Shown here: piece after piece, positions 11,668-18,482 of the stretch
How the letters are laid out: each line of letters begins with the position of its first letter
How positions within the stretch are numbered: the stretch's first letter is position 1
Assembly (NCBI GenBank): GCA_032906765.1
Contig: JAJTZB010000002.1
Location: forward strand, 186,001 to 250,000
DNA length: 64,000 nt
Source: Nitrososphaerales archaeon
GTDB taxonomy: Archaea > Thermoproteota > Nitrososphaeria > Nitrososphaerales > Gagatemarchaeaceae
Direction of reading: 5' to 3'
The notes under the pieces: generated by a model
What the model saw: only the letters and a program-made list of their open reading frames with translations
Database searches by the model: none
Told to the model about the DNA's origin: nothing
Program-made: the position numbers and the translations under genes

Positions 11668-12069
11668 TCAGCCCCAGACTCCGTGGTGGTCGGAGCTCGC
11701 GATTGTTTGACCCAAGTCAAGCAGCTCCCTGACGGTAACGAAGTTCGCGAGGAATTTCTTCCCAGCGTCTGTTATGTCGTAGTGGACTCCGCTCTTCGAG
11801 ACAGTCTTCTGCAATGCCCCGGTCTGCTCGAGCCTTCCGAGTGAATCTTCCAAGTCGCCCCAGGAAAGGTTCGCCTTGTAGAGTATGTGCGTCCTCCTGA
11901 TTGGTCCGAACTCGTTGACGACTTTCAGGATGTCGATGTACCGCTCCAGTCGCGATCGCTTCGATGTCTTCGCCTCCCTGACAGGACCCAACCCGGCCGT
12001 CCTGTCGATTATCGGTTGCCTGTCCAAGTCGTCAACGCCGAGCCCCTTCCAGATTCCGTTGTTTGACAT
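11668..12069 (-). CDS. winged-helix DNA-binding protein (HTH_45 type)
   Basis: 133 residues from ATG 12069. The central motif RYIDILKVVNEFGPIRRTHI followed by LYKANLSWGDLEDSLGRLEQ and a wing HYDITDAGKKFLANF matches the small archaeal winged-helix family in which a membrane or YKANLSW-like signature is common. The N-terminal 45 residues are polar and may be disordered. Probably a sequence-specific regulator; target unknown. ATG 12141 upstream would add a Cys/Arg-rich lead-in and is less likely. Confidence 0.7.
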   Translation of the reverse strand: MSNNGIWKGLGVDDLDRQPIIDRTAGLGPVREAKTSKRSRLERYIDILKVVNEFGPIRRTHILYKANLSWGDLEDSLGRLEQTGALQKTVSKSGVHYDITDAGKKFLANFVTVRELLDLGQTIASSDHHGVWG

Positions 12070-12524
12070 TTTGCTACCAGCGGAGAAATTCGACAAACGA
12101 ACCACACTGACCCGCGTACAACATCGACCCGGAGTCCCCAAGCGTCATGACAGGGTTCGGCCGTTCTACCGAAGAGACGTCGCCGAAAAAATCCGCGGAA
12201 GATCTCGCGAGCATCATCGACATCGGGTGTCGACCTCTGTTAAAGTGAAATGGACTTGCGCCCCATGGGAAGCCTCTTTTTCTTTCGCGCCGCAGATTTC
12301 TTGTCGTCGTTTGGGTCTTAGTTGACATAAAGCATAGAATAGTGCGGCCTTGATTTGTGGCTTCTTGTCAAATAGCGTAGAGCAAACGAATGGTTTCGGG
12401 CCATGTAGACCTGCTCCATATTTTTCCGCCATCAAAGAGCTCCAGTTGGCGAGTCCAGAGTCTTGCGATGGTTTGCTGTTTCACAATGCAGATATAATTT
12501 CCGAAACAATACAGACGTGAGAAA
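12070..12524 (+). other. intergenic region upstream of ftsZ, about 455 bp
   Basis: No convincing gene on either strand. The right part (12330-12520) is AT-rich for this genome and should hold the ftsZ promoter. The left part holds the divergent promoter of the winged-helix gene. Confidence 0.5.
12491..12500 (+). promoter_or_regulatory. TATA box of ftsZ
   Basis: gatataattt centred about 29 bases before ATG 12525; implies a leader of only a few bases. Confidence 0.5.
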
Positions 12525-13580
12525 ATGGAAATGCAATTACCAGACCAACCTGAAGCCTTCATCGAACAGATGAAGATTCAGTCAATGACACAACTGGCGC
12601 GACCAAGCGTTGCAGTACTCGGAGTGGGCGGAGCAGGCTCCAACATCGTCTCCTGGATCAAGGCGCGGGGCATTGCGGGAGGCAAGCTCATCGCCTGTAA
12701 CACCGACGCACCCCACCTCAGCATAACGAAGGCGGACCGCAGGGTCCTCATCGGCGAGAAGCTGACGGGCGGCAGAGGATGCGGCGGCTATCCGGAGAGG
12801 GGAATGCAGGCTGCCCAGGAGAGCATCCAGGAAATCAAGAGGGAGGTCCAAGGGGCAAACATCACATTCCTTTGCGCTGGCCTAGGAGGCGGAACCGGAA
12901 CAGGAGGCGTCCAGATCATAGCGAAGGAGTTGAGGGCCCAGGGGAACCTAGTGATCGGCGTTGTCACGCTCCCGTTCTCTGTAGAGAAGTACAGGTACGA
13001 GATAGCGAGGAAGGCCCTCCTGAACCTCCAGGGTCTCTGCGACTCGGTCGTAACCATAGACAACACAAAGCTAAGTCAGGTAGCGGGGAACCTGCCCCTA
13101 CAGCAGGCCCTCGGCGTCGCCAACGAGCTGATAGGCCAGTTCGTGAAGGGGATCACCGAGACGATAACCACCGCTAGCCTGATCAACATCGACTACGCTG
13201 ACATCAGGGCCATAATGGAGCGCAAAGGCCTCGCCGCGATAGGCGTAGGCGAGGAGGAAGGCTCCAACCGTGTGGAAACGGCAGTCCGCCACGCCCTGGA
13301 CGCTCAGCTGCTCGACATCAAGGACATCTCGAAGTCACAGGGGGTGTTGGTCCACGTATCCGGAGGAGACGACGTCACGCTGGAGGAGGTGACGAGGGCA
13401 GGGGAACTTGTCACTCGTTCGCTCCCGCCCAACACGAGGATCGTGTGGGGCGCCAAGGTGGACCCGACCATGAACGGAAGGGCCCGCGTGATGGTAGTCT
13501 TGACGGGCGTGGAGAGCACGTTCCTGAACAGCGCGCCCAGGTGGAGTCTAGGTCCGTTGAAGGTGGGGGGCGGCAAGTAG
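12525..13580 (+). CDS. ftsZ: cell-division tubulin homologue FtsZ
   Basis: 351 residues. GTPase features: VAVLGVGGAGSN (29-40), NTDAPHL (59-65), the tubulin signature GGGTGTG (121-127), and the T7 synergy loop NIDYADIRAIM (221-231) with the catalytic Asp pair. The canonical T7 loop argues for a true polymerising FtsZ rather than a CetZ. There is a 24-residue N-terminal extension and no long C-terminal tail, but the end LGPLKVGGGK could be a short partner-binding peptide. FtsZ forms the cytokinetic ring at mid-cell. Two further genes follow at 26 and 9 bases spacing, so they may encode ring partners. Confidence 0.95.
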   Translation: MEMQLPDQPEAFIEQMKIQSMTQLARPSVAVLGVGGAGSNIVSWIKARGIAGGKLIACNTDAPHLSITKADRRVLIGEKLTGGRGCGGYPERGMQAAQESIQEIKREVQGANITFLCAGLGGGTGTGGVQIIAKELRAQGNLVIGVVTLPFSVEKYRYEIARKALLNLQGLCDSVVTIDNTKLSQVAGNLPLQQALGVANELIGQFVKGITETITTASLINIDYADIRAIMERKGLAAIGVGEEEGSNRVETAVRHALDAQLLDIKDISKSQGVLVHVSGGDDVTLEEVTRAGELVTRSLPPNTRIVWGAKVDPTMNGRARVMVVLTGVESTFLNSAPRWSLGPLKVGGGK

Positions 13581-13606
13581 CCTCCTGCCCTTTTTGGTTA
13601 TTCACC

Positions 13607-13969
13607 TTGCGCCGCCTCTTTCTCCTCACAAAAAGGAGGTTCCAGCAGACGCTCAGTGAGCCCGATGTCTCGTTCGTCTACAAGGCAGTCGGGTTCCTCG
13701 CGATGGTGGGGTTCTTCGCCGCAGGCGCGGCTTCTGTCCTGCTGCCGTTGAGCGTCCCGCTCCCGTCCACGGTCATGTTCGTTGTCTCTGCGTTCGGCGC
13801 CGCCGTGTTCTTCGCCGGGCTGGTATCTAGCGAAGCGTGGGCCCTCTCGATGAGGAGGCGGTACAACTACACCCTCTCCTTGGACCCCTACACGACTAGG
13901 AAGCTGGCCATCTTCGTGGTGGGGCTCTCAGTCGTGACGCTCGCTGCAGTCCTTCTCGTCCTGAGATAG
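13607..13969 (+). CDS. small membrane protein in the ftsZ operon
   Basis: 120 residues from TTG 13607, the only usual start that gives a sensible N-terminus (basic RRLFLLTKRRFQQ). Three hydrophobic segments lie at about 26-48, 52-72 and 98-118, with a basic loop SMRRRYNYTL between the last two. It starts 26 bases after ftsZ and ends 9 bases before the coiled-coil gene. It is a candidate membrane anchor for the FtsZ ring; this is inferred only from the operon. No family recognised. Confidence 0.65.
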   Translation: MRRLFLLTKRRFQQTLSEPDVSFVYKAVGFLAMVGFFAAGAASVLLPLSVPLPSTVMFVVSAFGAAVFFAGLVSSEAWALSMRRRYNYTLSLDPYTTRKLAIFVVGLSVVTLAAVLLVLR

Positions 13970-13978
13970 GAGAGAGGG

Positions 13979-15598
13979 TTGGCGAACGGGCCACAGAACG
14001 GCAGCCCAGACGCCCTTTCGATACTCTTCGCCGTTGATTCTGAGACCTCAAAGCCCCTGCCGTACGAGCTTGAGGTCCTAGTCGCCTGGCTATCCATAGT
14101 CAAGAAACTCCCCCCTCCGCCTCCCAATCGCACCTACACCGAGGGGATAGGAGCAATAGCGAAGGTGTACTATCCGCTTTGGGCTGTCAACCTTGGCGGG
14201 AAGGTTGCTGTGCTGGACCCGCTCGCGGACCGTGTCTCCAGGGTGGAGTACAGGGAGCCAACGAGGATCGACGGGTTCGTCGAGAGGCTCCAGGAGACCC
14301 ACCGCAAGGTGTCAATGTTCAGGAACATGCTCGAGGCGTACCAGAACGCCTTCCCGATGTCGGGGGGCACGAGGTCCGTTGACGTCCCAGGCCTCCTCAG
14401 CGGTTCGGAAGCGGCAGCGATCATGCTCCGCGCGACCAGGAGCGATAGCAACGGTGGGGAGAGCGCCAACCTCCCTGTGGTGGGGGGAGCCACCTTCCTG
14501 GCGGTGAAGGGGACAGTCACAGCCATCCAGACGGTCTTCCGGTCATTCGCAGAGGGACTGGAGGAGCTGAGGCTGGCCAAGAGCGTTCTGAAGGTGGAGA
14601 CTGAGAGCCAGCTGAAGAGCCTCGGCACAGAGGTCGGGACGCTGCAGGCCGAGTACTCCAAGGAGATTGAAGCCACGAGAGACCTAGCGGACAGGACTGT
14701 CGAGGCGCTCGTGAAGAAAAGGGACGAGGAGATAGAGATGGTTGCCTCCCGCTTCACGGAGATAAGGGAGATGCTCGTCTCAGACCTGATGAACCTGAAG
14801 AAGGCCCACTCAGCGATCCTCCGCGAGGAGGGCTACCTGAGGAGGGTGGCAGCTGCGAGCGTCGCGAGCAGGCTCACACCGGGGTCGGACATGGTGAAGC
14901 TGCTCCTGGGCGACCACGCCAGCAGGCTCAGAACGGTGAAAGATGAAGCCTCTAAGGTCCAGGTTCTCGTCGAGGAGATCGAGAAGGAGAAAGGGAGGGA
15001 GCTGAGCGCGATCAAGGACCTCTACGATGAGCTGATCAGGGCCAAGTCGAGGGTGATCTCCGACCTGCAGATAGAGCTTGAGGTCGAGGTTGAGAAGCGG
15101 ACGGCAGAGATAAGCGAGCTCAGGGAGCTCCAGGAATCCATCGAGAAGAAGCTCGACAACGTCGTTGCGTCGAACGAGCAGTATCTCCACAATCTGGACT
15201 GGATAGTTCAGGACAGTGCTGGGGTCAAGGAGAACACGCCGGTGTACGTGCCCATCTACCTCGCCATGCCCGAACGGTCAGAAGGGCCATTTCTGGCCTG
15301 CCCGCCGAGCCTCTTCCTCTCGGGCTCGCCCCCCTTGGGAGCAGCCTACTCACTCGAGGAGAGGCTGAAGCCACTATCAGGCTACCTAAGGGCGCTCACC
15401 GACCTGCAGATCCCGCACAAGGCGCTGAAGGAACGGGACTTCAACAGGAAGCTGGCACAGCTGGTCCGTGGCCACGACCTCATGCCGAGCCTCACCGAGA
15501 CTGTGGCTACGGGTCTGAAGCTTGCACAGGAGAGGGGCTGGATAGGTGAACCAAGGGCGAGGGCGATAGAAGCGCTGGCAGCAAAGCTCAGTGCCTAG
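13979..15598 (+). CDS. coiled-coil protein in the ftsZ operon
   Basis: 539 residues from TTG 13979. The first ~190 residues are a compact globular part with a Pro stretch (KKLPPPPPNRTY) and no recognised motif. Residues about 190-405 are almost continuous heptad-like coiled coil (ELRLAKSVLKVETESQLKSL, then EIEKEKGRELSAIKDLYDEL, and ELEVEVEKRTAEISELRELQ). The C-terminal ~110 residues are globular again (YLRALTDLQIPHKALKERDF). No ATPase motif or signal peptide. The position behind ftsZ and a membrane protein suggests a structural or regulatory division role, but a family could not be named. Confidence 0.75.
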   Translation: MANGPQNGSPDALSILFAVDSETSKPLPYELEVLVAWLSIVKKLPPPPPNRTYTEGIGAIAKVYYPLWAVNLGGKVAVLDPLADRVSRVEYREPTRIDGFVERLQETHRKVSMFRNMLEAYQNAFPMSGGTRSVDVPGLLSGSEAAAIMLRATRSDSNGGESANLPVVGGATFLAVKGTVTAIQTVFRSFAEGLEELRLAKSVLKVETESQLKSLGTEVGTLQAEYSKEIEATRDLADRTVEALVKKRDEEIEMVASRFTEIREMLVSDLMNLKKAHSAILREEGYLRRVAAASVASRLTPGSDMVKLLLGDHASRLRTVKDEASKVQVLVEEIEKEKGRELSAIKDLYDELIRAKSRVISDLQIELEVEVEKRTAEISELRELQESIEKKLDNVVASNEQYLHNLDWIVQDSAGVKENTPVYVPIYLAMPERSEGPFLACPPSLFLSGSPPLGAAYSLEERLKPLSGYLRALTDLQIPHKALKERDFNRKLAQLVRGHDLMPSLTETVATGLKLAQERGWIGEPRARAIEALAAKLSA

Positions 15599-17930: not shown

Positions 17931-18482
17931 ATGTACGAGGGAGAGGAAGGCGTCCCGGACGCTCTGGACCTTCTTATCGACTGGGCTGTCTCGAACCGTG
18001 CGTTCAAGAGGAACAAGGTTGGCGTAAAGAGCAAGGTTCTGGCCGCCGCGCTCGTGGCCTCAGGCGTTTCGTACCGGGAGGCCGCAGTCATGCTCGGTGG
18101 AATGTCGTTCATCGCCGTGAGGGACAGCTACCTAAGAATCGCCAGCCTCCTGCCCAAGGGGGAACGCAAACATAGGAGGTTCGTAGCGATCGACGAGTCT
18201 GTGATAAGGATAGGCGGCGGCCCATCCTACCTCTGGCTGGCAAGGGACGTGGATTCTGGCGAGACGATTTCATTCCGATGCTCCTTCTCGGGGTCGCCCG
18301 AGGACAGCGCGGCCTTCGCGGGCTCCGTCCTCGAGAATTGCAGCAACAGGCCTGCCGCGAGGCTGGGCAGGGGTGCTAACCGGCCCAAAGCACTGAAGAA
18401 CCTCGATTTCTACTTTCAGACTGAGGGTCCTTCGGGCGTCGTCCAGATGATCCAAAGGATCTTCGGCGTCGGGTCGCGGTAG
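17931..18482 (+). pseudogene. DDE transposase remnant (IS6-like)
   Basis: 183 residues. The N-terminal helical part (YREAAVMLGGMSFIAVRDSY) is followed by the first strand of an RNase-H-fold DDE domain: HRRFVAIDESVIRIGGGPSY, then LWLARDVDSGETISFRCSF. The first catalytic Asp (IDES) is present. The frame then loses family features after about residue 130 (CSNRPAARLGRGANRPKALK) and the second Asp and the Glu are missing, so the enzyme cannot be active. It is a decayed insertion sequence, or much less likely a domesticated fragment. Confidence 0.7.

Follow-up and report, generated by a model that had tools for sequence, protein, structure and literature searches.

Results

What holds the canonical FtsZ of a Nitrososphaerales archaeon to the membrane, and do the genes that follow ftsZ take part? 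Division in these archaeal lineages is generally credited to Cdv proteins, and the anchor of archaeal FtsZ is usually described as SepF. In the window analyzed here, a stretch of 64,000 nucleotides from contig JAJTZB010000002.1, ftsZ is followed at 26 nt by a gene for a small membrane protein with three transmembrane helices (TM3) and, 9 nt beyond that, by a gene for a coiled-coil protein (CC). The initial annotation had described this gene row with the right coordinates and strand and had proposed it as a new division module consisting of FtsZ, an anchor and a filament organizer. Judged from strand and spacing, the three genes form one operon and are probably co-transcribed. They are listed in Table 1 together with the adjacent regulator gene.

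Table 1. The ftsZ cluster and the adjacent regulator gene in the window.
Feature	Position	Strand	Description and evidence
HTH_45 winged-helix regulator	11668-12141	-	divergent from ftsZ; Pfam HTH_45 48.6 bits
ftsZ, canonical FtsZ GTPase	12525-13580	+	351 aa, ATG start; Pfam/NCBIfam matches, PDB best match, tail comparison
TM3, 3-TM protein	13607-13969	+	120 aa, TTG start; G027 homolog, charge distribution
CC, coiled-coil protein	13979-15598	+	539 aa, TTG start; homologs, tree, AlphaFold model

FtsZ genes of the order

Based on its sequence, the window FtsZ is a bona fide canonical FtsZ. It scored 321.1 bits against NCBIfam TIGR00065, for which the cut-off is 295.2, and Pfam gave 128.5 bits for Tubulin (the GTPase domain) and 93.4 bits for FtsZ_C. 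The T4 loop reads GGGTGTG and the T7 loop NIDYADIRAIM, the latter bearing out the canonical T7 loop seen in the initial annotation; T4 and the core of T7 are kept across nine aligned FtsZs. In the PDB, M. jannaschii FtsZ1 is the best match and the closest solved structure (E=4e-79). The protein is 61-78% identical to most other FtsZs of the order, and GTP-binding and polymerizing functions can be assigned to it provisionally through family membership.

Canonical FtsZ was found in 35 of the 250 genomes of the order, the window genome included, with two or three copies in some, and nearly every genome of the order has a divergent FtsZ. The window genome (G000) carries three tubulin-superfamily genes, namely the window ftsZ, the divergent FtsZ on contig C5 and a tubulin-like gene of 462 aa on contig C1. 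This third gene (G000:C1:66954; L003:813-2817; Pfam Tubulin 44 bits) is flanked by a divergently oriented von Willebrand factor A gene and, 6 nt downstream, by an ORF of 181 aa. In genus g6 (L039, L043, L044) translation-factor GTPase genes, judged by eye to be IF5B-like, come right after ftsZ; a neighborhood of that kind is known for archaeal ftsZ1 (PMC8178401).

C-terminal tails and SepF

Archaeal FtsZ binds SepF through an almost invariant GID motif at its C-terminus (PMC8178401). The window FtsZ ends in a short C-terminal tail, RWSLGPLKVGGGK, which lacks this SepF-binding motif, and neither GID nor ID[DE] occurs in any of the 39 canonical FtsZ tails of the order, as scored by motif match rather than by binding. 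These tails are of three kinds: LGPLKIG-like in families f1, f4 and f17; basic-aromatic (KKKRFLGMF, KKKRFFSFLH, RRWWG) in f8, f3 and f14; and basic, such as RLGRLVRARQ, in f9 (loci of the latter two kinds: L226-L231, L257, L259, L015, L020 and L261). The basic-aromatic tails resemble direct membrane-binding tails. Examples of endings in outgroup FtsZs are DELGIEIVR and SIIDIIH.

The divergent FtsZ has an acidic tail, for example IIDEEMD, with a loose motif in 14 of 16 tails and the strict ID[DE] in 7 of 16. SepF is encoded in 40 of 41 genomes; the sepF of the window genome (G000:C3:146150-146362, 45.6 bits, above cut-off) lies on contig C3, apart from the window ftsZ. What is new here is that the canonical FtsZ tails of the order lack GID, while the divergent FtsZ is acidic-tailed and SepF is near-universal. 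Because of these three features, SepF likely serves the divergent FtsZ. Since the canonical FtsZ has no GID-type tail, its membrane attachment is probably brought about by something else, likely the basic tails in several families and perhaps TM3 in the window lineage. The window FtsZ has no strong N-terminal amphipathic helix, the best 11-residue moment being 0.52 with low hydrophobicity.

TM3

Neither TM3 nor CC gave a Pfam or NCBIfam match above cut-off. By these libraries, therefore, neither is SepF, FtsA or a Cdv protein, as had been judged by eye. TM3 was found in 2 of the 250 genomes of the order, the window genome and G027 of family f4, where the gene (L037:6988-7359) lies directly behind ftsZ with a gap of about 54 nt. 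The two proteins are 24% identical. Their Smith-Waterman score is 110, compared with 28 +/- 5 for shuffles (n=2000) and 42 for the best unrelated small TM protein, and SExWxL...RR is conserved in both within the basic TM2-TM3 loop. In each of them six basic residues precede TM1, the outer loop has none and the inner loop carries four or five, and the predicted topology places the N-terminus inside and the TM2-TM3 loop in the cytoplasm. Together, ftsZ and TM3 make a credible lineage-specific pairing, in which TM3 may be a dedicated membrane partner or anchor of FtsZ in the window lineage and G027. Because TM3 occurs in two genomes only, the pairing rests on one comparison. The next FtsZ relative, G040, has neither TM3 nor a recognizable remnant of it. 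We also weighed the f14 protein whose gene follows ftsZ (L050, L261) as a possible relative of TM3 and rejected it; it carries a HEALH motif and does not match TM3.

The coiled-coil protein

The AlphaFold model of CC (mean pLDDT 86) contains an antiparallel helical hairpin of about 230 residues (173-296 / 301-404), with N- and C-terminal globular parts on either side. Membership in a known family was rejected, as Pfam, NCBIfam, PDB profiles and Foldseek (PDB and viral) returned generic coiled coil only, the Foldseek matches having TM-scores of about 0.1-0.2 by query length. CC has dozens of full-length homologs. The family occurs in 18 of the 250 genomes of the order. A sample of 300 genomes across the phylum gave matches in 49, some of them weak; both counts include the window genome. 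By sequence comparison, the family is phylum-wide and undescribed in the libraries searched.

CC adjoins ftsZ only in the window genome. No homolog of the window FtsZ was found in the 38 other CC loci, most of which were covered for ~8 kb per side and some of which are cut by contig ends. The initial annotation had suggested synteny in relatives as a check, with free separation from ftsZ counting against a module. CC does largely part from ftsZ (beside it in 0 of 38 other loci); TM3 does not, its G027 copy also lying behind ftsZ. Among 400 genomes of the order, the window-type CC subfamily, as defined by genome search, tree and alignments, has members only in G043, five f13 genomes and the window genome itself. 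Canonical FtsZ was found only in the window genome among these, G043 being 88% complete with a contig that ends 207 nt past CC.

Eight of the 38 other CC loci (L072, L111, L123, L125, L131, L133, L136, L139) have a conserved AAA+ ATPase-like gene downstream of CC, mostly at 4-91 nt or overlapping and once at 1.5 kb. It encodes about 590 aa with GEPGTGKS, gave no Pfam match in the two members scanned, and is absent from the window genome. Its structure model was set aside as too poor (pLDDT 63). CC and this gene are a candidate two-gene system of the phylum.

Because CC is independent of FtsZ elsewhere, it is probably not primarily an FtsZ organizer, and we consider a role in division doubtful. 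Lying within a cluster that was likely exchanged as a unit (see below), it may nevertheless have a role related to FtsZ.

Phylogeny and synteny

In the FtsZ tree the window protein is sister to that of G027 (99/91) and falls outside the FtsZs of its own family, f1. The window CC is sister to the CC of G043 (100/100), which belongs to family f4 like G027. A seven-gene syntenic block is common to these two genomes; it carries HTH_45-ftsZ-TM3 in G027 and adjoins CC in G043. The nearest sampled relatives of all four genes (HTH_45, ftsZ, TM3 and CC) are in one family, f4. G027 has ftsZ-TM3 without the window-type CC. No remnant of TM3 or CC was found beside ftsZ in G027 or G040 apart from the TM3 gene of G027 itself, and none of ftsZ or TM3 beside CC in G043. 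In G006, a relative within f1, a 102-aa gene and an AN1/M50 gene are adjacent; in the window they are separated by 6.7 kb that includes the cluster. The agreement of trees and synteny indicates that the four-gene cluster was likely exchanged between families as a unit. Within the f4 lineage it has apparently been split up. Assembly contamination is an unlikely cause of the discordant trees because the cluster has genes with f1 homologs on either side.

In G027 and G040 a relative of the window HTH_45 is likewise divergent from ftsZ, and in four f13 genomes one lies beside CC. The phmmer ranking placed G027 first, followed by the four f13 CC-side copies and the G040 ftsZ-side copy; the set ranked consisted of ftsZ and CC loci and is hence biased, and other HTH_45 genes of the same genome rank lower. 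This type recurs beside ftsZ or CC in several families and is a possible regulator of the locus. Short ORFs near ftsZ look transposase-like by eye (window 17931-18482, L039:6706-7260, L042:1-210). The two that were scanned gave no Pfam match, and these ORFs may bear on the mobility of the locus.

Discussion

We tentatively favor the reading that this is an accessory FtsZ locus with TM3 as a dedicated membrane partner and CC travelling along, the cluster having been exchanged between families. The canonical FtsZ would then be additional to the divergent FtsZ encoded by nearly every member of the order and, lacking a GID-type tail, would obtain its membrane attachment from something other than SepF. 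In the window lineage and G027 it would be recruited by TM3, with its N-terminus inside and its basic cytoplasmic loop, through a putative FtsZ-TM3 contact. CC, from a family independent of FtsZ, would move with the cluster and have only a possible role in division, and the cluster would have moved between families together with the divergent HTH_45 regulator. Several points weigh against this reading: TM3 occurs in two genomes only, other FtsZs of f1 with a similar LGPLKIG tail manage without TM3, the next FtsZ relative G040 has no TM3, and SepF could bind FtsZ by another route.

Alternatively, TM3 and CC could be fortuitous neighbors that are unrelated to FtsZ function and came to share one transcript after a rearrangement. 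In most cases, canonical ftsZ in this order is not followed by a conserved partner gene, CC is independent of ftsZ elsewhere, and the adjacency in G006 of the two genes that flank the cluster means that the region has been rearranged. We nevertheless regard chance neighborhood as unlikely, since a second family also has TM3 behind ftsZ, despite divergence of the two TM3s to 24% identity, and the four genes share an affinity to f4. The three-gene division module of the initial annotation, in which FtsZ, a TM3 anchor and CC as filament organizer would work in one machine, is possible on sequence evidence but is not favored, and we rate it lower still. The single tight gene row, the f4 relatives of all cluster genes and the position of the G043 CC, at the locus occupied by ftsZ-TM3 in G027, are consistent with it. 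So is the finding that this type of HTH_45 accompanies ftsZ in one set of genomes and CC in another, which makes the association look older than the window genome. However, nearly all genomes with the CC family lack canonical FtsZ and ftsZ-CC adjacency is seen only here; G027 has ftsZ-TM3 but no window-type CC; and some CC genes pair with an AAA+ ATPase-like gene that the window genome lacks. As a general module the proposal fails, with TM3 in 2 of 250 genomes and CC beside ftsZ in one; a non-random ftsZ-TM3 pairing is the credible part, and the anchor role is plausible for TM3 only, not for CC.

An accessory cytoskeletal cassette moved between archaea for a job other than division, such as shape, envelope or DNA positioning, would fit the patchy distribution of canonical FtsZ (35/250, multiple copies in some genomes), the discordance of its phylogeny with family, and a near-universal divergent FtsZ and SepF that could serve the core function. 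It seems to us very improbable, as no mobile-element hallmark was demonstrated and the FtsZ core is well conserved, at the identities given above.

An order in which canonical FtsZ lacks the GID tail while a second FtsZ is acidic-tailed makes two things directly testable: whether basic tails or a dedicated TM partner can tether archaeal FtsZ, and which role canonical FtsZ has in lineages generally believed to divide by Cdv.

Among known systems, the CC model recalls the hairpins of SMC/Rad50 type, and its Foldseek matches include SMC-type coiled-coil arms. Unlike SMC/Rad50, it has no ATPase head, the matches are confined to the coiled coil, and the globular ends match nothing. Bacterial ZipA is an integral membrane tether of FtsZ. 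The likeness of TM3 to it lies only in the proposed principle of a TM protein recruiting FtsZ, whereas no sequence relation was found and TM3 differs in its three TM helices and in lacking a large soluble domain. With the archaeal FtsZ1/FtsZ2-SepF system (PMC8178401, PMC8187382) the window genome shares a canonical FtsZ and the combination of two FtsZ types with a single SepF; it differs in that the window FtsZ lacks the GID tail, the sepF gene lies on a separate contig and ftsZ is followed by a 3-TM gene. The Odinarchaeota FtsZs use different membrane tethers, that of OdinFtsZ1 being an N-terminal amphipathic helix, and a ZipA-type tether is named in the same study (PMC12583498). Unlike OdinFtsZ1, the window FtsZ has no strong helix of this kind and is followed by a TM gene. 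The dual FtsZ of Odinarchaeota (PMC12583498) is nonetheless similar to what we describe here, in that there are two FtsZ paralogs of which apparently only one is suited to SepF.
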